A DNA stretch of 64,000 bases from Nemania diffusa (lineage: Eukaryota > Ascomycota > Sordariomycetes > Xylariales > Xylariaceae): assembly GCA_038501195.1 (NCBI GenBank), contig JBBPUQ010000003.1, forward strand, positions 2,620,501 to 2,684,500. Direction: 5' to 3'. This document shows positions 6,518 through 22,942 of this stretch, in pieces (the stretch's first letter is position 1; every line of letters starts with the position of its first letter). Position numbers and translations under genes: made by a program. The notes under the pieces were generated by a model. The model had not been told where the DNA came from. It did no database searches and saw only the letters and a list, made by a program, of their open reading frames with translations.

Positions 6518-8653
6518 CTAGTGCGAAACCCTTGTTCCCGTCCTGACAAGGCTGACAGTCGTCTTCTTGCCCCCCTCAACCCTCACTTTCTCGGTCCCTG
6601 AAATCGGACCGCCCACGGTCCCAGTCGTGCCATTCGGCGGGTCCACCACGACGGAGATCTCCCCGCCCGCGCCGGCCTGCCAGCTCACGCCCAGCGGCCC
6701 GTACGGCGTCGGGACCACGCCGCGGGCCCAGGCGATGTCGTCCGCGCGCGCGACGTCCACGCTCCACTCCAGGAACCCGGGCCGCGCGGGCTTGACGCCG
6801 AGCACGTAGGTGCTCAGCAGGGGCGCGACGCCGGACGACCAGCCGTGCGCGAGGCTCGTGTCGGCGCCCTCGTACTTGGCGCCATCCGCGCCGACGCCCT
6901 CCCAGTGCGTGACGCCCGGGTCGGCCGCGGCCATCCAGCCCCAGGTGCGGCGCACGAGGTCCAGCGCGCCGGCGGCGGCGTCGTCGTCGTCGTCGGCGCC
7001 GGCCTCGAAGCGCGCGGCGCCCTCGAAGTACGAGACGAAGGCGTACACGCGGTCCGAGAAGCCGGCGCCGAGCGCCTCACCCGCGGCGTCGTAGAACGCG
7101 TTGCCCCAGGGCCGCGCCGTGGCCGAGGCCAGGTAGCTCAGCGCGCCGGTGGCGCTCGTGGCGTTGGCGATCCCGGCGAGCACGGCGAGGCTGTTGCCGT
7201 CTTGCGCGTGCGCGGCGCAGCCCGCGCCGGTGCACTTCCGGTCGAAGTACGCGGAGACGGAGGGGTCCCAGAGCGTCGCCTGGAACCCGGCGGACACGGC
7301 CGCCGCGCGCGAGCGCCACCGCGCGGCGTCGGCGGCGTGTGCAGCGCTGAGGTCGGCGAGTGAGGCGGCCTTGTTCAGCGCGAGCACGTACAGGGCGCTG
7401 TAGTACGCGGCGGAGCCGGGACGGGGCAGGAAGGCGTAGTCGCCGTAGCCGTCGGGGCGCACGAGGAGCTGCGTCGCGGCGTCGGTGTGCGCGGGGTAGT
7501 AGGTGTCGAGGACCTTGACTAGCACGGCGTAGTGGGCGTCGAGGTAGGACGCGTTGCCGGTGTAGAAGACGTAGTCCCAGCTGCAGAGGACCCAGTAGAG
7601 GGGGTAGTCAAAGAGCGCGAGAGTGTACTGGTTGATGCTGGCGGGGGGCAGCCAGCCGTCGGCGCGCTGGTGGGCGGCGAGGTCCTCGAGCACGTTGAGC
7701 GTCGCCGTCGAGGCGTCGGGGTGCGACAGGTAACTCGTCAACGAGGCGACAGCGAGGTCTCCGATGTACGGGTCGCGGTCGCGCTTGGCGCCGTCGAGGA
7801 GCACGAGCTTGCCGAGCAGCGACGCGCTCGTGGCGCCGCGCGGCTCCGTGTCGTTGGCGTTGAAGACGGCTGTGCCCATGTCGACCGTGTACACGCCGTC
7901 GAACCACCACTGCGTCAGGTTCGCGTCGGAGCACTCGAACCAGCCCGCGAAGGTGTCTGGCGTGCCCAAATACCCGGACCAGCGCAGCGCGACGGACGAG
8001 ATCTGCACTTGGCCGTCGGCGGATGTGTACGGCGCATCCGTCGTCAGGGCGTCCAGGGAGATCCGGACGTATCGGAAGGCGTGCAAACCATCCGAGCAGA
8101 CTTGACTGCCGTATTCACAGCCCCATTGGTCTTCCCAAGTGTACGCGTCGTTCTTGACGGCAACCTAGATAGGTGGGATACGTAAGTGCGAACTCTCGTA
8201 TCTCCTTTCCCGAGTTATTCCAAACGAGTTGTCTTAATTTCTTACCTGATCTGTTCCTGTGGTGACGAGCTGAGGTGGATCCTATTGTGCAAATAGTCAG
8301 CACCTCGTATTGGATCGAAGCCATGCGCGATTGGACACGAAAACATACCCCTTGTGCCCTATCCGAGCGGGTATAATCACTGCGATCAGTCAAAAACTCG
8401 AGGGCCTCCGAAAAGGCCAATCGAATCCCGGGAAAGGCCTGCGACGACCCGTTCGTCGATCCTGCAAACTCGAGAAGTAATTGACCCACGACGTTCTGTC
8501 CAAAATCAACAACAAGCGTCGGGGTCTCGTCCGAGCCGCCAGATGCTGCGGTAAGCACAGTTGTGGCAGCACCTGTGACGAGTCCATCCGCATTTGCAAT
8601 GTTCCCCTGCGTGTAGCTCGACAGTATTGTCGCTGGGCGCACGATGGCACTGT
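6518..8653 (-). pseudogene. GH78 alpha-L-rhamnosidase, 3' part separated from its 5' end by an insertion
   Basis: Three exon pieces on the minus strand: 8653-8349 (interrupted exon), 8281-8246 (36 nt) and 8164-6518. Introns are 67 nt (GTATGT..ATAG) and 81 nt (GTAAGA..CTAG). The product is a six-hairpin glycosidase of family GH78, which releases terminal alpha-L-rhamnose from plant glycosides and pectin side chains. Recognisable blocks are VRPATILSSYTQGN, VVDFGQNVVGQLLLEFAG, DRSDYTRSDRAQG, YTWEDQWGCEYGSQVCSDGL, GAKRDRDPYIGDLAVASL, DYPLYWVLCSWDYVFYTGN and SLAHGWSSGVAPLLSTYVLG. There is no frameshift or stop. The frame opens without an ATG at the edge of the 14 kb element; the missing first 36 codons lie at 22834-22942. 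The last exon is very GC-rich compared with neighbouring genes. As it stands the gene should be inactive. Confidence 0.9.
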
Positions 8654-8692
8654 TACAGCAACCCAGAGGGCTAACTGTTCGAAAACTAATTT
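8654..8692 (+). repeat. Left terminal inverted repeat of the 14.2 kb element
   Basis: 39 bp starting TACAGCAACCC and ending ACTAATTT, inverted at 22789-22827 with two transition differences. Immediately outside is the CACTGT duplication at 8648-8653. Confidence 0.9.
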
Positions 8693-11600
8693 TGAGTCAC
8701 TAGCAACACACTATACTCCTAAATAAAAACAGAGTTAACTTATTTTAAAATAATTAAATAGAAATATACAGTATAAACATAAATAAAATTTACAGTACAG
8801 TATATATTAAAATTATTTTAATTATTAATCTAAGTTATAAACTATTGTTTATATTCGCTTTTTATTATACAAGCTCAAAATAGTAAAATAAAAGTTATAA
8901 TAGTTTGCGCTATTAATTATTAAGCTTTTATTTAAAAAAAACTAGTTACTAAAGCTTGCTTTAACTACAATATACTATTACGAAGTACAAATTCTGCTTT
9001 TCTGCTTATTATTAACTTTACTAAAAGCTTACCGATTTAAGCTACAACTGAGCTAAAGTTTATTCAACTTATTCGTTTTATTTTAACACTTATACTAAGT
9101 ACGCCTAGAGCTTTATTACAACTGATTACTTTTGCATAACTTGATTTTGCATTTATTTTTGTATAAACAAACTAACAGCAAAGTATTACGTTAACAAACA
9201 CAAAAAAACAAAACATTATTAATAGTATAGCTATTAATATTTATGTTAAACTTAAAATTGTTAAATCAATTAGTACTTTTATATACGAGTTTATTAAAAA
9301 AATCAAACAAGTTAAAGCTATGTTAGCTTATACTGTTTTAATTAATTAAGTATTTAATAACTACTAAGAACTTATTAAATATTTCAAGTCGAACTAAACA
9401 ATTTTAAACTTATATACTACTAAACAAGCTTGTAAATTAGTTGTATCAGTTATAACAAACAATAGATGCAGTGTTATAAAGTTAACTAAAAACTTTATAG
9501 AACTTATTCAGCTTTTTAACTTAAAAGCTGCTAACAATAATGTTAATAAAAACAAGTTTGCAGTTAATTTTTATTATTCGCAAAAAGCTCCGCTTAATTA
9601 TTTTTTAATCAAACCGAAAAAAAGCAAAAAATACAAAGTTTAATTTTTTTCGGACATACTTTTAAGTTTATTAAACAGTAAAACAAAAAAAAAGATTAAA
9701 ATTGAACTTAAATCAACTTTAATTAAACAAAAGCTTACTAGTGCTAGTTTATTTTTACGTAAAATAAAAAATGAACTAAGCAAAATCAAGCTAAATTTAA
9801 AAACATCTTGTTAGCTAAAACTACAAACACTTTCGTTAAAAAAAATCAAAAAAAAATTAACTTTTACTTATAACTTACTAAGCTTTAAACTACTAATTTT
9901 AACTAAAAATAAATATAAACACTTTAGCTTATTTGTACAAATATAAAATGCAGCTAAACAGCAAACTAAAGTAAAAAATACTAGCGAAAACTAGTTAAAA
10001 ATACAAAAACAAAGTTTATTTCAAGTTGTTTTTTCGTTAAACTTTCTTAGTTCATTATAACTATTTTATATTGTTATTTAGTTTGTTTATAGTTTAAATT
10101 AAGCAAGTTTTTTTTATATTAAAGTATATTATTTATTTTATTATTTAGTTCAAAGTTGTTCAAGTTTAATAAACTAAAACTAGCTAACTTTAACTTCTGT
10201 TTTAGTTCATTTTAGCTTCTTTTAAGTTTAACAAGCTTAATAATTTAAAGCACTTGTTTATATAAAATATAACTTTTTAAATCAGTTTTTAAACGTTTAT
10301 ATTTGTAAATATATAAAGTTTAATTAGTAAAAAAAGCAACTAATAATAATTGATTTAAATAAAATACAGTTAAACAATTACAAATTTACATTGTAGCTTC
10401 TAAAAAATAAGCATTTAAATTAATACTATTAATATTAACTAACTTTATAAACTCAAACTATCGTTTTTTATTTAAAAGTATATAGCAATCAACAAAGCTT
10501 TAAACTAAATTTAGCATTGTATATAGTTAGTAAAAAATACTAGCAATAATATATAGTTTTATTTGTTAAGCTTAAATACAATACTTATTCTAAAAACGTA
10601 TAAATTCGAAGCACTTATAACGAATTAAAAGCATAAAAATATAAAGTAAAACAACACAGTTTTTTTAAAACTTAAATAACTAAAAGCTTTAATACTTAAA
10701 CGTACTAAAATACTTCTAATATATATTAGTACAAATGTAATAATAATAGTATAAGCTTGTATAAATACTTACTTTTTAAAACAATGTACAGCTTTTTTAT
10801 AGTTAATTTTACTAGCTTTCAATTTATTAATTAGCTGTGCTTTTGCTAAAAAACTAGCAACTACTTTATTGTAAAAACCTATTTCTTGTGTTTTTATTGC
10901 TGTTATTATACGCAGTAAATTAAGCAATATTGCTCGAAAATGTATTTGTTTGTGCTATTTTAAACATAAAAACACAAACTTTTTTTAGAAATAATTAACA
11001 TGAATATTAGTCGCTTTTAGAAACTTCAAATAAAAAAAAATGTACTATTACTATTATTAAAGTTTCGTTATTTCGATTTAATTGAATAATAAGTAGTAAA
11101 TAGTTATATTAATTAACTATTTCTATATATTAAATAAAAATAAACTAAGCTATAACTGCTAAAAACTCAATATAAAACTATAAAATAAATTGTAAATAAG
11201 CGTTAATACTAGCATAAATTTCGAATCTATATTTAGCAAGTTTAAAATATACATTTACTAACAAAATATAGTTTAGTTTAAAACAAGTCCAACTTTTATA
11301 GCAATAATAAACTTTGTTTAAACGTTTAATAATCAAAACTTCATAAAATTTTCAGTAAACTTTATACAGTACTTTACAAAATAAAACAAAAAATCGTTAA
11401 TACATATAAGTAACAAAAGTTCGAAGTTCGAGCTAACTTGTTAAACTTTGCATATTTTTTTTAGTACTAAAAAACTTTCGTAGTTACTATTAATATGTTT
11501 GTACAACTTCAATCAAATATTTGTAATATATTTCTAACTGTATACAAATAACTACAATACTATATAAAAATATAATAAACTTATTACAAATTAAATGTAC

Positions 11601-12000
11601 ATATAGCTATTAATTAAATAGCCCGTACTTATAATATAATGTTACAAATTGCTTGTTAAAATTATCGCTATACTTAGTACGTTGTTTATTCTTAAAAATT
11701 CTCTATTGTTTTAATTGTACATATAAAACAGTTCGTTTAATTAGTATATTGTAAAAATAATTAAAAACGTTTATTATAAATTCGACTCGGGTATAATTTC
11801 GGTATTCTTCGATAATCCATTTTTTTTATAAATTAAAGTTAATTGTTAAGTGCTCTATTTTAGCATGCTAAAAGAAAAAAGTGCTAAAGCTTTATGTAAC
11901 ATGTGCTAAAAAAAACAAAAGTATACAAAGTCGAGCTATTAAACACAAACATATACATAAGCATACAACTTTGTACAAATAAGTACTACATAATAATATA
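8693..12000. other. Left arm of the element: AT-rich, non-coding, no recognisable gene
   Basis: This 3.3 kb zone still contains scattered G and C, mostly as isolated bases in words such as AGCTT, TTCG and TGTAC, while GG and CC are rare. There is no open frame of note on either strand. The palindrome TTGTACAA occurs near 9933, 11499 and 11971. It may be a mutated remnant of coding DNA, but nothing can be identified. Confidence 0.6.
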
Positions 12001-12058
12001 AATAAATAAATAATAACTAAATAAAAAAAATAATAGAAATAATAAAAAAAATTAATAT

Positions 12059-12237
<179 letters not shown>

Positions 12238-13256
12238 AAATAATTTATTTTATTTATTTATTTAATTAATTATTTATTTATTTATAATTAAAAAAATTAT
12301 TTTAATAAAAAAAAATTATAAATTATAATTTTTTTATTAATAAAATAAAATTAAATAAATTATTTATTTATAATATTAATTATATATATAATTATTTAAA
12401 AAGTTTTAAAAATTATTTATTTTATATATTTTTTTATTAAAAAAATAATAAAAATAATTATATATAAATTAATTATTAATTTAATATTATTATTATAAAA
12501 TTTAAATTTAATATAAAATATTATTTTAAATATATTATTATATATTTAAATTTATAATTTTTTAAAAATATATTATAATTATAAATTATTAAAATTTTAA
12601 AAATAAATAAATTTTTATTTTATTTTATTATATAATAATTTTTAAATTTTTATATAATTTAATTTTTTTTATATTAAATATTTATATTAATAATAATTTT
12701 TAATAATAATTTTTATTATTATTATATATTAATATAATTTAATTAAACTTTTATTATTTATATATTAAAATTATTTTTATATATTTTAATTAATTAATTT
12801 ATAATTTATTTATAAATAATATATATATATTATATATTAAATTAATATTTTTAATTATTATAAATTTAAATATTATAACTTTTATATTAATTATATATTA
12901 ATTTTTTTATTTATTTAAAAAATATAAAAATATAATATATAATTATATTTAAACTTTTAAAATTATTAATAAATTATTATTAATTAATAATATTATAAAA
13001 ATATTTATATTATATAAATAAATATAATAATTAATAAATTATTTATATATATATAAATAATATTTAAAAAAATTAATTAAATTATAATATTATAATATTT
13101 AAATTTTTTTTATTTTATATTTAAATATAAAATAAAAAATTTAAAAAAATTAAATTAAATAAAATATTAATTAAATTATAAAATATTATAAAATATATAT
13201 TAAATTTTAATAAATATAAACAAAATTAATAAAATATAATTAAAAATATATAAAGT

Positions 13257-13700
13257 TTTAATAAATATAAATATAAATTTATTAATATTAAATATATAAT
13301 ATATATATTTAAAAAAAGCTATTATTTTTTTATAATAAAATAAAAATTTATAATTTTTATTTATTTTATTTTTAAATTATTAAAATTTATATTTTTATTA
13401 TAAATATTATAAATAAATTAAATTAAAAATAAAATAAATAATTATAAATTATATAATATATAAATAATAAAAAGTTAATAATTTATTATTTTAAATTTTA
13501 AAAAATATAATTTAATAAATAATAATTTTATATAAAATATTTAATAATTATTTAAAAATTTTAAATATTATATAAAAATTATATAATATAATAATAATAA
13601 AAAACTAATATAAAATAAAATAATTTATTAATAAATTAATATTTTAAAAAATATTTTAAATAATAATTTTTAAAAAATAATATTATAAATTAATTTTAAT
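13257..13700 (+). repeat. Direct repeat C, copy 1 (diverged)
   Basis: A longer and more diverged repeat that aligns with about 20330-20850. Shared blocks include AAATTTATTAATATTAAATA near the start, an AAAGCTATT word, ATTTATATTTTTATTATAAA in the middle, and TATAAAATAAAATAATTTAT near the end. Exact limits would need an alignment. Confidence 0.65.
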
Positions 13701-14195
13701 TTAATTTATAAATTATATAATTTATTTAATTATTATATTAATAAAAAAAATATAATTATAATATATAATTTAAATTAATTAATTTAATAATTTAAAAATA
13801 ATATAATATTAAAAATATTAATATAATAATTTAATTTTTTATTATTATATTAATTATTTTAAATAAAAAGTTATATTATTATTTATTATAATATATAATT
13901 AAAACTTTTTTAATTTTATTTAAGTTTTATTAAAAAATTATATATTAAATTATTATTATAAATTATAATTAAATTTTTATAATTAATTTTAATTTAATTA
14001 TAATAATATTATAATTTAATAAAATATTAATAAATTAATATAAATATAAATATTTATTATTAAAAAATAAATATATTATAATATAAATAAATTATTTAAA
14101 TAAATATTTATATAAAATTAAAAATAAAAAAATTAAACTTTTAAAAATAATTTTAATAAATTTATAAAATATATAATTTAAACAATAAAAATTTA

Positions 14196-14359
14196 ATAAT
14201 AAAATTATTAAATTATAATTAATTATAATTAATATAAAAAAAATAATAATATAATTTTTTATTTATTAATATTTAATATCAATTAATAAAAAATAAAAAA
14301 TTATATTATTATTTTTTTTATATTAATTATAATTAATTATAATTTAATAATTTTATTAT
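14196..14359. repeat. Palindrome with arms of about 70-80 bp in the AT core
   Basis: The left arm (14196-14265) contains AATAATAAAATTATTAAATT and continues through TTAATATAAAAAAAATAATA; the right arm (14290-14359) is its reverse complement with essentially no mismatch. The centre is near 14277. Confidence 0.85.
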
Positions 14360-16169
14360 TTATATATAAATGTTTTTTTTTTTTTTTTAAATTTTAATTA
14401 ATATATTAATAATATATTTAATTTAATTATTATTTATTATATTTATAAAAAATCTTTAAATATTAAATAATTATTATTAAAAATTAAAAATTAAAAATAT
14501 ATAATATTTAATTAAATAATTAATAATAATAATAATAAAGTTTTAATATTTTTTTAAAATAAATTATTTATAAAATTATTTAAAATATTATTATATTTAT
14601 ATATAAATTATTTATATATATATATATATATTTAAATTTTATAAATTTTAATTAATTTTTTTAATTTTTTAATTTTTTAAATAACTTTTAAAAAATATAA
14701 TTATATATATTTATATATATAAATAATATTAAATAATTAAATATAATAATTTTTTATATAATATAATATATAAAAGTATTATTTATAAAACATTAAATTA
14801 ATAATATATTTTATTTATTATTAATATTTTTATTAATATTTAAAATTAATTTATAATTATTTTTAATATTAATAATATAAAAAATAAAAAAGATTATATA
14901 AATTATATATTATAATTATAGTTTTTTTTATTTTTTATTAATTTATATTAATTAATTATTTTTAAAATTTTTTATATTAATAAAAGTTTTTAAAAATATT
15001 AAATAAATAAATTTATATAAAAACAATATATTTTTAAAAAAAACTATAATAATTTTTTAACTTTTATTTATTATATTAATTATTTTAATAAAAAATTATA
15101 TTATTAATATTAATATATAATAAAAACTTTTATAATATTTTTTTTATTTTTATAATAAATTATTTTATTATATAAATTTATAAATAATATTATAATTTAT
15201 ATTATAAAATATATTTATATTTAAATAAAAAAATTTTATTATTTATTTAAAATAATAAATTTATTTAAAATTTAATAAAAAAATTAAAATAATAAATTAA
15301 AAAGTTTTTATATAAATATATTAATTTAATTAAAAAAATTAAATATATTTTTTAGTTTTATATTTAAAAATATATAATATTATTTAATTTTTAAATTTAT
15401 AATTAATATTATATTTTTTATAATTTATTAATTTATTAAAAACTTATATATTAAATTAATATTAATTATTAATTTATTTATAATAATATTATATTTAATA
15501 AAATCTTAATAAATTAATAAAAATAACTATATAATTATTATTAATTATATTAATATAATTATAAATGTTTAATTTTAAAAAATAAATATATTAAAATATA
15601 ATTTAATTATTTTTTTATAATTTTATTATTTATTTAAATAAATTAAAATAAATTATATTAATTAATATTTATAAATAAAATAATATTTATATATATTTAT
15701 AAATATAATTAAAAAATTAATATTATTAATATTTTTAATAATATTAATAAAATATATTATATATAATATATTTTTTAAATTAATTAAATAAAATATAAAT
15801 AATTTATAATATTAACTATTATTTTTAATTAATTTTTTATATATTTATATATTATAAATTATTTAATTTATTTTATTATATAATAAAATATTAAAATTAT
15901 ATATATATTATTAAATTAATTAATATATAAATAAATTAAATTTATAATTATAATAAAAAAAATTAATATTATTAATATTTTTAATAATATTAATAATATA
16001 TATTATATATAATTAAAAATTATTTTAATAAAAAAAAATTTTATATTATAATAACTTTTATTAATAATAAAATAAAAACTTTTTTAGTTTTTTTTTTATT
16101 AATAAATTATTTTATTATAAACTTATATATTAAATTAATATTAACTATTAAAATATTATTAATAATTTA

Positions 16170-16322
16170 TTTATAATTAAATAATAACAATTTAATTTAT
16201 TAATTATATAATTTAATTAATTATTATATATAATAAATATATAATTAAACTTTTATTATTTATATATAAAAGCTTTTTTTTTATTTTTTAATTAATTTAT
16301 TTATAATATATTTAATTTAATT
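16170..16322 (+). repeat. Direct repeat B, copy 1
   Basis: About 150 bp, also present at 20860-21009; both contain TATATAATAAATATATAATT followed by AAACTTTTATTATTTATATA. Copy 1 has AAAAGCTTTT where copy 2 has AAAACTTTT, and CAATTT where copy 2 has TGATTT. Confidence 0.8.
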
Positions 16323-16576
16323 ATTATTTAAGTATATTTATTATATATAAATTAACTTTTTATTTTAATTTATAAATTATATATATATATATTATATATT
16401 AAATTAATATTTTTTTATTTTTATAAATTTAAATAATAAAACTTTTATATAAATTATATATTAAATTTTTTTATTTATTTAAAAGTTATAAAAATATAAC
16501 AATTTTAATATTTAATATTTAAATATTATTGATAAATTATTAATAAATAATAATATTTTAAAAAATTTAAAAATAT

Positions 16577-17550
16577 AATTTTATTATATTTAAACATTTT
16601 TATTATAATTAATATAAAATATATTTATATTATATAAAATAACTACTTTTTTTATAAATTATATTTTTATAAATTATTTATATTATATAATTTTATATAT
16701 AAATTAAAATATATATTAATAAATTTAAAAAAATAAATAAAATTTAAAAAATTAATATATTAATATTAAAAATTATAAAAAAATTTAAATAATAATAATA
16801 AATTTTTATTTATTTTTATATTAACTTAATTAATTTTTAAAAATAATTATAAATAAAATTATAAAATTAAAAAAAATATTAATATTTTAAAAATTATATA
16901 ATATTTTATAAATTAATAACTATTTATTTTTATTATTTTTATTTAAATTTTTATTAATTAAAAGTTTTATAATTTTTAAATAAATTTATATAAAACTTTA
17001 TATTAAAATTATATTATATAATTATAAATTATATATTTTATATATAAAATTTTATAAAAATTATAAAATTTTTAATTAATAAAAATTTAAATAAAAATAA
17101 TAAAAATAAATAGTTATTAATTTATAAAATATTATATAATTTTTAAAATATTAATATTTTTTTAATTTTATAATTTTATTTATAATTATTTTTAAAGATT
17201 AATTAATTTAATAAACTTTTTATTTTTAATATAATATTAATAGTTTTATTAATAATTTATATATAATAATATTATTAATTATTTTTAAAAATTAATTAAA
17301 TTAATATAAAAATAAACAAAAATTTATTATTATTATTTAAACTTTTTTATAATTTTTAATATTAATATATTAATTTTTTAAATTTTTTTTAATTTGTAAA
17401 CTTTATTAATATATATTTTAATTTATATATAAAACTTATATAATATAAATAATTTATAAAAATATAACTTATAAAAAAAGTAATTATTTTATATAATATA
17501 AATATATTTTATATTAATTATAATAAAAATATTTAAATATAATAAAATTA
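16577..17550. repeat. Large palindrome of about 970 bp in the AT core
   Basis: Two arms of roughly 450-480 bp face each other around a centre near 17020-17060. Segments such as AATAACTATTTATTTTTATT (left, near 16915) reappear as the exact reverse complement near 17100-17120, and the outer segments at 16600-16720 pair with 17400-17530. There are small indels and scattered transitions. The left arm keeps AAACATTTTTA where the right arm has AAATATTTTTA on the paired strand, a C/T difference. Confidence 0.85.
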
Positions 17551-17671
17551 ATTAATATTTAATTAAATTAAAAATAAAAAATCATTTAATTAAATAAAAA
17601 TTTTATTATTTATTATTAATTTAAATATTATTATAAAAAAAACAATTAAATTATAAAATATAATTAAATAT

Positions 17672-17932
17672 ATTAATTTAATTTTATATAATCGATTATA
17701 TATAGCAAAACTAAAGCAAAATATAATATTGTAATTATATAATATTATTATTGTTTTTTTATTAATAAAAAAAATTTATATATATAATATATATATATAA
17801 ATTATATAAATTTATTAATAATTTATTAATATTATATATAATAAAATATAATTAATTATTTAATAAATAAATAATAAATTATATAAAAAAAAATTAAATA
17901 TATATTAACTATAATTAATATTATTATTTTAA
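17672..17932 (+). repeat. Direct repeat A, copy 1
   Basis: About 260 bp, repeated at 19965-20222. Copy 1 keeps ATCGATTA, TATAGCAAAACTAAAGC and TATTGTAATT where copy 2 has ATTAATTA, TATAACAAAACTAAAAC and TATTATAATT. Nearly all substitutions are C/T or G/A transitions. Confidence 0.85.
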
Positions 17933-19964
17933 TAGTTATAAAAAGAATTTTTAATTATAGTTTTTTTTATATATATATTTTTTTTATTTTTTTTATATAT
18001 ATTTTTATTTATATATATAATTTATTAATTAAAAGTAATACTTTTAATATTTAGTTTAATACTTTTTTTATTAATATATTAATTAAGTTATTTTTTTTAT
18101 TAATTTAAAATATTTTTAAAATTTTTTAAAAAGTTATATAAAAAATAATTATATTATTAAATTTATTAATTATTTTATATAATTTATTAATTAATATATT
18201 ATTAATTATTTATTTATATTTATTTAAATTTTAATAAATAATATTATTAAAAATTTTAAATTTTAAATTTTAAATTAATATTATTTTTTATATAAGTTTT
18301 TATAACTAATATAATTAAAATTTTAATTTATAATATTATATTTATATTATTTATAAATAAATTATTTATAAAAATAAAAAACTTTTTATAATATAAATTC
18401 AAAAATATAAACATTTGTTTATAATTATAATTATTAATTTATTATTTAATTTATTTATTTAAAATAATTATATTAACTTTTTATAAATTAATAATTTAAA
18501 TAATAATAAATAAATTATAAAAAATTTTTAATTAATAAATATTATTTATATATATATTTTAAATATATTAAAAAATATATTATTATATAAAGTTTTTTAT
18601 ATAAAAATGAATTTTAATTAATTATATAATTTAACTTTTTTAAATTAATATAATATATTTATTTATAAATATAATTTAAATATTATTAAATTTAATTAAA
18701 TTATTTTTATTTAAAATTTGTTTAAGTTTAGTTTTAAATTTTATTATATAAAATTAAAAATATTGTTTATTTATAAATTTAATAATATTAAAATTTTAAA
18801 ACTATTATTAATAATTAATAAATAAAAATTATATAAAAAAACAATTATTTTAAATTTTTAATAATAATATTTATAATATATTTTAAATTAATATAAACTT
18901 AATTTAATTAATTTATATAATAATTATATAATTTATAATATAGTTTTTTTAAAATATTTATTTTTAAGTTTAATAAATAAATATATATAAATTTTTATAT
19001 AAATTTATTAATTAATTATATATATATTTATATAATATTTTATAATTTATATATTTTATTATAGTTTTAAATTAAAATAAATTTAAAAATTAAAATTAAT
19101 TGTTAATTTATTTATTAAATTATTAATAATTATATAAATATAATATTTTTTTTTAAATTGTTATATTTTTATATAATTAATTAAAACTTTTTATATAATT
19201 AAATAATTTTATTTTTAACTTTTTATATAAACTTTAATTTAAAAATTTAAATATTATAATATTTATTAAAGTTATATTTTATAAATTTAAATATTTTTTA
19301 TATAAATAATTTATTAATTTTTATTATATTAAATTTTTTAAAAAAAAGTTTAAATATATTAATAATATTATTTATTTATAATTTAATAACTAGTTTATAA
19401 TTTATTTTTCTTAATTAAAAAAATATAAAATTTAATTATATAAAAAAATTAAAAATTATATTAATTTTTTAAATTAGTTTTTTTTTTTTATATAATATTT
19501 ATTAAAATAAATAATATATTATTTTTATTGTTTTATTTTATATTTTTTATTATATAAAAATAAAGTTTAATTTATATATATTAAAATTTTATAAATTTAT
19601 TAATTATATTAATTATAATATTAAATTTTTTAATAGTTTATATTTTATATAGTTTATTTTAGTTTTATTTTTTTTGCTATATAAATATTTTATATAAAAT
19701 AAAACTGTTTTATTAATTAATTATATAATTAATTTTAATTATAATTTGTTTTTTTTAAAATATTTTTATAGCTTTTTTTAATAGTTTTTACTTTTTATAT
19801 AATATTAAAAAATAAAATAAAAATTTAATTAATTTATAAACAATTATTAAAAATAAATAATATTAATATAAAACTATTAAATTTTATAATATTATTTAAA
19901 ACTTATTAATTTATAATATATTACTATTAAATAAAAAAAGTTAATATAATTATTAATTAATATT

Positions 19965-20222
19965 GATTTAATTTTATATAATTAATTATATATAACAAAA
20001 CTAAAACAAAATATAATATTATAATTATATAATACTATTGTTGTTTTTTTATTTAAAAAAAAATCTTTATATATATAATATATATATATAAATTATATAA
20101 ATTTATTAATAATTTATTAATATTATATATAATAAAGTATAATTAACTATTTAATAAATAAATAATAAATTATATAAAAAAAATTTAAATATATATTAAT
20201 TATAATTAATATTGCTATTTTA
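19965..20222 (+). repeat. Direct repeat A, copy 2
   Basis: Second copy of the 260 bp repeat at 17672-17932. It keeps AATACTATTGTTG where copy 1 has AATATTATTATTG, so each copy has lost different C/G positions. Confidence 0.85.
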
Positions 20223-20329
20223 ATAAAATATATATATAATTTTTATATAATTAATTTATTATTTAAAAATATTATTTTTAAAACTATTTTTTAAATAAAA
20301 AAAGTTATAAATATTTATATATATAAATA

Positions 20330-20850
20330 ATTTAATAAATATAAATATAAATTTATTAATATTAAATATATATTATATTTATATATATATATATAAAGCT
20401 ATTTTATTAAAAACTATTTTAAAATAATAAAAAATTAAAAATTAAAACTATAGTTTTTAATTTTTTTATTTTTAAATTATATTTAAATTATTTTTTAATT
20501 ATTAAAATTTATATTTTTATTATAAATATAATATAAAAACTAAATTTATAAAACAAAATAAATAAATTAAATAAAAAATAAATTATAAATTTATAAATTA
20601 TATAATATATAAAAAATAAAAAATTATTTATTTATTAATTTAAATTTTAAAAAATAATAATATTAAAAATAATAATTTAATATAAATAATAAATAAATTA
20701 TATTATATAAAATATTTATTAATTATTTAAATTATTAAAAATTATATAGTAATTATATAATATAATAATTATAAAATAACAATATAAAATAAAATAATTT
20801 ATTTATAAATTAATATATTAAAAAAAAAATAATATTATAAATTAAATATA
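20330..20850 (+). repeat. Direct repeat C, copy 2 (diverged)
   Basis: Partner of 13257-13700. It directly follows direct repeat A copy 2 and precedes direct repeat B copy 2, so A, C and B lie in tandem here and are dispersed elsewhere in the core. Confidence 0.65.
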
Positions 20851-20859
20851 TATTAATTT

Positions 20860-21009
20860 ATAATTAAATAATAATGATTTAATTTAATAATTATATAATT
20901 TAATTAATTATTATATATAATAAATATATAATTAAACTTTTATTATTTATATATAAAACTTTTTTTTATTTTTTAATTAATTTATTTATAATATATTTAA
21001 TTTAATTAT
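20860..21009 (+). repeat. Direct repeat B, copy 2
   Basis: Second copy of the repeat at 16170-16322, with transition and small indel differences. Confidence 0.8.
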
Positions 21010-21399
21010 ATTTATTATAATTATAAATATATATATTATAATATAAATAAATTATTTAAATAAACATTTAAATATATTTTAATATTTTTTTAATTTATTA
21101 TTATTTAAAAAACAATTTTTTATTTTTTTATTTATTTATTTATATTATTATAATTAAAATATATAATTTTTTAATATATTAATTTATAAATTAATATTTA
21201 TTTATTATATATATAATTATATTTTTATTAATTTTAATATTATATTAATTTAAAATATATAATTTAATTTATAAATTATATATTATAAAATTATATTATA
21301 TTTTATTTATTTATTTATTTATTTCTTTATTTATTTATATTTTATATTATAAAATTTCACATTTATTAAAATTAAAACTTTATATTATAAAAAATTATT

Positions 21400-22788
21400 T
21401 ATTAACTTAGTTATTTAATTTTGTTTACTAAGTTTAAGTAAAAAAAAACTTTTGCAAAATTTTTATAACTATCGATTTTATTTTATTTAAAAGTGTACTA
21501 ATTTTTAAAACTTTAATTTAAATATATATTAACTTGTAAACTTTAATATTAACTCGTAAAAACTTAAACTAAATTTAACACAATTATTCATTGTTGTATA
21601 CACTTGCACAAAAGCATATTCCTTTTATCCTTTTTGCAGCTACTTAACTCTTAGTCAATTTGTTAACAAAAACGTTTGAGCTAGCTAGTAGTAGCTTGTT
21701 CAAGCATTTCTGAAATAATTTTAAACAGTTTTACAGTTTTTACGTTTTTATTATTAGCTATAAATGTTAGTATACGTTTGTATAAAGTTGTACAAATACT
21801 TACAAGCTTCTGCATATTTAAATCTTTTTTGTTTTTTATAAAAAATGTACAATGTTACTAGTAAAAAGTATTAGCAGCAAAAACAAGCGCTGCTAAAAAC
21901 GTTAAAGCCAAAAAAAATACACTTGTTAAAAAAGCTACAGCTTTTCGAACTTGCACAAATTTAACAATTTTTAACATTAACTTAATTAAAAACTATATAA
22001 GCTGCAACAGCTAACGCTTGCTGTTAACGACTTGTTTCGATATTGCAGTAAATAAAAGCACTTTTAATTCGAACTTTTTTTGAAATAATAAAGCGAAAAA
22101 TAGTTTATATATATTAGTTTAAGTAGTATTAAAGTTGTACAAAGTTGTACATACAATATTGTCCTTAATATAACAACAAACGTTGTTAAAATTACTTTTA
22201 CAAAAACTATTAAAAAAGCTCTAAGTTTTTGCAATATAGCTATCGAAGTTGTTATAATTGTATAAATATTTCAAACTCTTGCTATTTTAACACTAGAATC
22301 GAATATTAATAATTTTATTATTACTACAATTTTTCTGTTTAAATCTAGCTATTTGCTGCTCACGCTAAGTTTAAGTAGCTCGTTCTACTTAGTAACAAGT
22401 TTTAGCAAAATTAGCTACAGCTTGTTTTATTTAAGCTTTAATTAAACAAAGTTTACTTCTGCAACTTTTATATAACAGTATGTTGCTGTATATATAATAC
22501 AAGATTATATAATATAATAATGTTTATTAATAGTTAATAATACATATAAAAGCTTGTATATATTAATACACTAGTTAACACTTTTGTACAAAGTTGTACA
22601 AATATGTTTCTAAAACTTACTAAAAAATAAATTGTTGTAGCTAAAAAAAAAATCAATAATAATAAATATTCTATATATACCAACAGCTTCTACTATTTTT
22701 AGCTGTATTATATACGCTAACCCAAAAACAACTATAATACCCACTTATAAGGGGTATTTCTATACTTCTTAGGTGTTATTTTAATAAG
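21400..22788. other. Right arm of the element: AT-rich, non-coding
   Basis: Composition like the left arm, with G and C returning abruptly near 21400. No open frame of note. The palindrome TTGTACAA occurs at 21788, 22135, 22584 and 22594, the last two in near-tandem, which resembles the subterminal repeats of some transposons. Confidence 0.6.
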
Positions 22789-22827
22789 AAATTAGTTTTC
22801 GAACAGTTAGCCCTTTGGGTTGCCGTA
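22789..22827 (-). repeat. Right terminal inverted repeat of the 14.2 kb element
   Basis: 39 bp; read on the minus strand it starts TACGGCAACCC and ends ACTAATTT. It matches the left end in 37 of 39 positions. The CACTGT duplication follows at 22828-22833. Confidence 0.9.
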
Positions 22828-22942
22828 CACTGTCCGGGGCGCGCACATACTGTTGCCAGCTCGGCGGCTCTTGCGCGGAAGACCGACAGACTAATATGCA
22901 GGCGGCCGGCCAGAGGCTTGAGACGAGTGAGCGTGTGTGCAT
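22828..22942 (-). pseudogene. GH78 alpha-L-rhamnosidase, 5' fragment with signal peptide
   Basis: From an ATG at 22942 the minus strand encodes MHTRSLVSSLWPAACILVCR followed by SSAQEPPSWQQYVRAPDS, then meets the element. The first 24 or so residues form a secretion signal (short basic start, hydrophobic stretch, cleavage after SSAQ). Joining 22942-22834 to 8653 continues the frame as APDS-AIVRPATIL, the normal start of the mature fungal GH78 fold. Together with the 3' part the uninterrupted gene would encode 698 aa, a usual length for the family. An in-frame Met upstream (23056) is possible but would bury the signal peptide. Confidence 0.85.

Follow-up and report, generated by a model that had tools for sequence, protein, structure and literature searches.

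Transposons of the IS3EU superfamily mostly generate target site duplications (TSDs) of 6 bp and have TA..TA termini, which in fungi are TAYGG..CCRTA, according to excerpts of two reports (PMC10045372, PMC12730594). Styx, an IS3EU element of Zymoseptoria with a 7,927-bp consensus, combines an integrase ascribed to IS3EU with 6-bp TSDs, extra open reading frames (ORFs) and GATA, CCHC and DUF3577 domains; the published extracts also count mutations resembling repeat-induced point mutation (RIP) (PMC10853768). TET+ IS3EU elements of rusts and Tuber indicum have TAYGG..CCRTA ends, terminal inverted repeats (TIRs) of more than 30 bp and passenger genes, with TET/JBP and alpha-kinase genes among the cargo; in the same partial text, the 6-bp TSD is given for rust families (PMC12730594). 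Here, we describe an element of 14,174 bp that fits the IS3EU superfamily and splits a GH78 gene of the endophytic fungus Nemania diffusa. It lies in a stretch of 64,000 nucleotides (the window; C3:2620501-2684500) of a genome of 55,621,613 bp and 16 contigs, in which C and L label contigs and loci, respectively. The element has the integrase, TSDs, extra ORFs and RIP-like mutations of Styx, unlike it in length and in the three domains named. It shares termini, long TIRs and passenger genes with the TET+ elements, but its own cargo is a DUF3716 protein, a 408-amino-acid ORF and a core consisting almost entirely of A and T. Such a core is not among the features described for Styx in the extracts (PMC10853768).

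The second comparison is with RIP itself. RIP acts in the sexual cycle, ahead of meiosis. Like Neurospora-type RIP, the process recorded in Nemania causes C>T and G>A changes in repeats, on both strands, and RID- and DIM-2-like genes are present. Unlike it, the Nemania process prefers C after a pyrimidine (5'-YC) with a weak 3' effect, and saturated DNA is near 98-99% AT. In Microbotryum, RIP reportedly targets TpCpG. Hence, the 5' base matters in both fungi, but there within a trinucleotide with a 3' G and here as YC, whatever the 3' base. According to a passage of a fungal survey from 2025, its results strongly suggest a CpA preference common to RIP-like defences (PMC12543289). We consider it very probable that the window records the insertion of an IS3EU element, that a RIP-like process preferring YC inactivated it afterwards and that the core is the end state of that process.

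Results

A TIR element splits a GH78 gene

The sequence-only reading had proposed natural disruption of a GH78 gene by a TIR element of about 14.2 kb. Our analysis agrees and places the break in the first coding exon.

8648-8653, plus strand: TSD CACTGT, left copy
8654-22827, no strand assigned: DNA transposon fitting the IS3EU superfamily, 14,174 bp, within GH78 (TIRs, TSD, at least 17 genomic left-arm copies)
8654-8692, plus strand: left TIR, 39 bp, nearly spared by mutation of the left arm
22789-22827, minus strand: right TIR, 39 bp
22828-22833, plus strand: TSD CACTGT, right copy
22834-22942, minus strand: GH78 start, 36 codons and one base of a split codon (match to protein P0033)
8115-8653, minus strand: continuation of the split GH78 exon (P0033 residues 37-138 at 8349-8654)
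6518-8164, minus strand: GH78 six-hairpin and C-terminal domains, 548-amino-acid frame (Pfam, P0033 match)

Rereading both ends confirmed that the 39-bp TIRs differ by two transitions and that CACTGT flanks either side, as first noticed. At up to three mismatches, the genome has 39 matches to the TIR pattern, against none for a reversed control. Hence, a chance origin is excluded.

The two gene pieces were translated one by one and the split codon was read by eye. The 5' piece gives MHTRSLVSSLWPAACILVCRSSAQEPPSWQQYVRAP plus one base, and the 3' piece, from the TSD onward, gives (S)AIVRPATILSSYTQG. P0033, a 697-amino-acid protein named as N. diffusa, reads ..YVRAPDSAIVRPATIL.. unbroken across the join, so the fragments are adjacent in a homologue. 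It is 99% identical to the 548-amino-acid 3' part, in which Pfam identifies six-hairpin and C-terminal rhamnosidase domains. When searched against the genome, P0033 residues 1-39 matched 22826-22942 (95%), residues 37-138 matched 8349-8654 (98%) and residues 150-697 matched 6521-8167 (99%); residues 139-149 were left unplaced. One TAG lies within the last of these matches. This is probably at an intron edge, because the 548-amino-acid frame opens directly behind it. Below 8349, the open GH78 frame probably continues into intron sequence.

We rejected a second gene in the present genome as the source of P0033. The sole close match of the protein is the split gene and all others are on C10, at 33% identity. 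An uninterrupted protein with no second close copy supports natural disruption. It also fits the suggestion of polymorphism among strains, on the evidence of a protein and no empty-site DNA. We conclude that the insertion is a gene knock-out of an ordinary kind and that strains are probably polymorphic for it. To this picture the present analysis adds the IS3EU superfamily, the AT-only core, hypermutation after insertion and the loss of a transposase source.

The window copy is hypermutated at C after pyrimidines

Searches with the TIR and the left arm found at least 17 arm copies in the 55.6-Mb genome, a lower bound from scoring 40 of 78 candidates. Those with 0-5 RIP-type changes were called unmutated. 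Six of the 17 qualify, with arms of 41-44% GC (two of them without a left end), and 11 are mutated. Aligned over 3340 bp with an unmutated copy, the left arm of the window copy shows 322 C>T and 365 G>A changes, 687 in all, and no reverse changes, transversions or gaps. Similarly, 354 C>T and 313 G>A changes separate the C9 copy from the unmutated sequence, and 574 and 531 separate the C3:112370 copy, with no change of any other kind. Three of the mutated arms are purely RIP-type in this sense; the other eight contain 4-228 transversions.

Within the window arm, the converted share of G and C rises from 6% over the outer 40 bp to 27% at 41-150 and 41-59% farther in. Across the mutated copies the outer 40 bp are 0-24% converted, and the copy hit hardest has bins of up to 98%. 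Past 150 bp of the window arm, 509 of 629 YC sites were converted (0.81) but only 168 of 698 sites following a purine (RC; 0.24; chi-square p 1.4e-94). By 5' base, the fractions are 0.89 for CC, 0.76 for TC, 0.27 for GC and 0.21 for AC. YC exceeds RC in all 11 mutated copies, with a smaller gap near saturation.

The same footprint is evident outside the family. In two Copia copies, 67% identical to each other, residual C after T is 0.35 and 0.19 of expectation, and residual C after C is 0.13 and 0.05. Of the sites preceded by Y, 21 of 23 differ as C/T between the two copies; for sites preceded by R the count is 105 of 163. AT-rich loci L058-L060 and L055 have the same context. Within this sample of two Copia copies and a few loci, the YC rule holds across the genome. 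A literature search conducted mostly without full texts, with subscription journals outside it, found no description of RIP in a YC context.

Mutated sites were compared in all 28 pairs among eight mutated copies. Sites in common are only 1-10% more numerous than context alone predicts; for the window and C9 copies, 505 are shared and 461 expected. Hence, the copies were mutated mostly separately, in place. Spread of copies after mutation was rejected since the overlap of sites is close to independent expectation.

The AT-only core is older than the GH78 insertion

12051-21420, no strand assigned: AT-only core, 9.4 kb, 98% AT (also present where the arms are unmutated)
12051-12236, plus strand: (ATT) microsatellite, 61.7 copies, at the left core edge
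16576-17550, no strand assigned: large palindrome in the core, 83%; inner 16819-17213, 93%

Between 12001 and 21000 of the window, GC is 0.6-3.3% per kb. Copies with unmutated arms have cores of 0-5% GC, and in two of these the cores are 99.3% identical across 8.5 kb. The window core (to 20999) is 99.65% identical to that of one unmutated-arm copy, gaps excluded. Of the 17 copies, 16 match a 1,441-bp core piece at 82-100%, and matches in the C2:5324411 copy reach just 75-76%. Since unmutated-arm copies carry the same core, we conclude that it is part of the mobile unit and older than the GH78 insertion. For the same reason, we rejected mutation of the window copy itself as the source of the core.

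Between 13483 and 20999, conversion reached just 9 of the 157 C/G sites remaining, compared with 33.9 expected at arm rates. The arm next to it (21300-21919) has 114 of 233 such sites converted, which matches expectation. The core is thus nearly refractory. Its preferred cytosines are almost gone: residual core TC has an observed/expected ratio of 0.1-0.2, and CC stands at 0/169. Also in the core are a palindrome of 975 bp and dispersed repeats, well above the level of one shuffled control sequence. AT-only loci exist beyond the listed copies (L058-L060, GC 1.4-6.4%). No paper on AT-only transposon cores was found in a very limited literature search. The published assembly of N. diffusa YAFEF818 has 19 scaffolds, 55,636,603 bp and 39.9% GC, from nanopore reads with Illumina polishing (PMC11320954). 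By crude inference, about one sixth of the genome would be AT-only if genic DNA of ~47% GC and blocks of 1-2% GC combine to give 39.9%.

C and G are lost stepwise in short relatives

Short relatives of 1.3-2 kb have the same kind of TIR and contain 51-bp tandem units. They include L023 (C1:1418185), L017 (C6:2412499), L024 (C2:1334617), L025 (C4:4949170) and L028 (C8:3092870). In L023, L024 and L017, for which both sides were read, the units are inverted across an A/T centre. We counted only units with four or fewer purine/pyrimidine mismatches. This gave 111 unit readings, not all distinct, since L029, L030 and L018 are the same elements as L023, L024 and L017. Going inward, the units keep their register and purine/pyrimidine pattern, and C and G are lost stepwise until the centre is AT-only. 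One unit of L023 has lost 13 of 17 YC and 1 of 13 RC sites; the next has lost 17 of 17 and 9 of 13.

The core edges of unmutated copies are graded too. At L061 (right) and L041 (left), C fades over ~150-200 bp, mostly with YC first. We read these gradients as a slight outward leak of mutation that had otherwise been limited to the core. The core itself was considered as a degenerate 51-bp minisatellite. This was rejected, with best matches of 38/51 and 40/51 against 37-41 in shuffled controls.

The family includes longer copies

Family members of 20-41 kb were found, their extra length being deduced from coordinates alone. Mutated copies at C1:2745998, C2:6425621, C3:112370 and C6:233010 are each ~27 kb, and the first has a split left arm. 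Three of these four have ~12 kb more between the core piece and one arm than the window copy has. By coordinates, this suggests that the extra ~12 kb is inside the core, on a side of the palindrome that varies. A 20-kb IS3EU copy encloses a stop-free match to Copia reverse transcriptase (C4:2589163-2589699), with stop-free matches of equal score at five other places. Two further TIR pairs, C10:3311128-3334417 (23 kb) and C6:3818039-3832672 (14.6 kb), are possibly giant non-autonomous elements. One end of each was read (L055, L027): an arm of a few hundred bp with ~9-27% GC is followed by AT-only DNA.

The element has the hallmarks of IS3EU

8834-10057, plus strand: relic of the 408-amino-acid ORF (coordinates transferred from L040:1681-2904; open in several unmutated copies)
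10719-11915, minus strand: relic of the IS3EU integrase, first part (rva_4; Clr5 and rve under cut-offs)
10122-10715, minus strand: relic of the integrase, second part, after a probable intron (transferred from L040:2969-3562; rva_4 under cut-off)
21752-22105 (approximate), minus strand: relic of a DUF3716 (PF12511) protein (transferred from L061:823-1176)

Unmutated copies encode an integrase with rva_4 (E 1.8e-10 in one copy, above the cut-off), the 408-amino-acid ORF, which has no Pfam match, and the DUF3716 protein in the opposite arm. Three integrase frames in the genome, counting that of the query, are 100% identical to the query and have no stop. By contrast, the first part of the window integrase has 28 internal stops (1 TGA, 9 TAG, 18 TAA). 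Hence, the window copy is dead as a source of transposase. All 32 integrase homologues found contain rva_4. In Seiridium, protein model P0015 has DUF3716 and rva_4 on a single chain, so their pairing is not peculiar to the present genome.

TSDs were assessed in the 13 end pairs for which both ends were read. Nine have exact 6-bp duplications at exact ends, three differ by one transition (by eye) and one, at C4:2657318, has none; the final A of the terminus is missing from this copy. Most of the ends read are TACGG..CCGTA, of which TACAG at the left end of the window element is a G>A form. Taken together, the rva_4 integrase (taken as a DDE enzyme of the IS3 kind), termini and 6-bp TSDs fit membership of the IS3EU superfamily.

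Candidate enzymes

The genome has four loci for cytosine-5 methyltransferases (PF00145). By motifs and length, we take L063 and L064 to be RID-like and L065 to be DIM-2-like. L064 (C6:3189900-3191500), the second RID-like cytosine methyltransferase, is 39% identical to L063. Among the best 120 of 240 matches, its named relatives over at least 98% of the length are from Nemania, Xylaria, Astrocystis and Poronia (54-77%), followed by matches of ~45% and less. Two features of RIP are present: C:G to T:A transitions in repeats (687 against 0 in the window copy) and a putative RID-family methyltransferase. A RID-family enzyme may run the YC mutation; this enzyme is putative, with four candidate loci. 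An APOBEC_N profile search found no match in the genome, and likewise none in 14 controls.

Discussion

The best account of our data begins with an IS3EU transposon that broke a GH78 gene by integrating into its first coding exon with a 6-bp stagger. Integration was presumably by cut-and-paste, as judged from the family. The incoming element already had its 9.4-kb core, as copies with unmutated arms do. Afterwards, the window copy was hypermutated on both strands, largely independently of the others, by a repeat-associated C-to-T process. This process prefers C after a pyrimidine, spares the outermost TIR bases and barely touches the core. It may be a host RIP pathway run by RID-family methyltransferases, and the core may be DNA saturated by the same process before the element arose or early in its history.

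The element could instead belong to other large groups. Starships and Polintons (Mavericks) are large with TIRs, and Polintons also encode an integrase. A 6-bp TSD is likewise given for Polintons in an excerpt (PMC10045372). Against such a placement are the rva_4 integrase and the TAC..GTA ends. Pfam scans of five ORF pieces of the element, with the 9.4-kb core outside the scan, found no protein-primed polymerase B or capsid domain of Polintons and no DUF3435 tyrosine recombinase captain of Starships, with an rva_4 integrase instead. We regard a Starship or Polinton as very improbable. Alternatively, the YC bias could reflect an APOBEC-like deaminase that edits single strands exposed in transposition or repair, rather than RID-type RIP. 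APOBEC3 enzymes are said to prefer TC and CC, the 3' base of the mutated C matters little here and the L033 copy is strand-biased. However, RID-like enzymes exist in the genome, and neighbouring YC sites in three copies are hardly correlated (0.01-0.02 within a strand, 0.01-0.05 between strands), a weak test with ~80% of YC converted. We think a deaminase unlikely.

Other explanations concern the core. Microsatellite growth and slippage, in place of C-to-T mutation, would account for the 62-copy (ATT) tract bordering the core and for the long ATT tracts of the short relatives. Yet the 51-bp units hold their register and pattern as C and G vanish, YC ahead of RC, residual core C is depleted after pyrimidines, and the core contains a palindrome and dispersed repeats beyond A/T microsatellites. 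Slippage is accordingly a doubtful source. Capture is a more serious contender: previously mutated host heterochromatin or nested transposons might have been enclosed between IS3EU ends and then spread along with them. The AT-only loci outside the listed copies, the mosaic of internal repeats and the Copia sequence inside the 20-kb copy at C4:2589163 are consistent with this. Nevertheless, non-family matches to the 1.4-kb core piece, among those listed, are mostly 69-73%, near chance for AT-only DNA. Three of those listed reach 79-80% over ~0.65 kb (C4:862695, C5:4760074, C2:6613003). Capture is quite possible, though we do not favour it.

We still prefer an IS3EU insertion inactivated by RIP-like YC mutation, with the core as its end state. 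Several observations weigh against this. The IS3EU placement uses the domain, termini and TSDs and assumes that rva_4 is an IS3EU-specific mark. The window arm has no classical CpA preference; by 3' base, conversion is 0.57 for CA, 0.39 for CC, 0.53 for CG and 0.51 for CT, so that CA is only slightly above CG and CT. The bias of L033 is 516 C>T to 367 G>A. Unlike the arms, the core combines its nine RIP-type differences with nine reverse changes and eight transversions, which may stem from older divergence or unpolished sequence. The innermost 51-bp units have 1.06 transversions per unit against 0.49 in outer units, so transitions alone did not alter them. Finally, the 51-bp unit is not above chance in the core.

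RIP is described as a CpA-directed defence. With 687 changes one way and none of any other kind, the window copy documents a different rule very cleanly. Four candidate methyltransferase loci in the same genome are open to testing. With the evidence evenly poised, we suggest that N. diffusa may have a repeat-targeted YC mutator, perhaps acting via the second RID-like methyltransferase, for which close named relatives come from Nemania, Xylaria and kin. Neutral repeats would then be driven to AT-only DNA, and IS3EU elements would carry a saturated core that can barely be changed. The family also shows how transposons can stay mobile even though AT-only DNA makes up most of their body.

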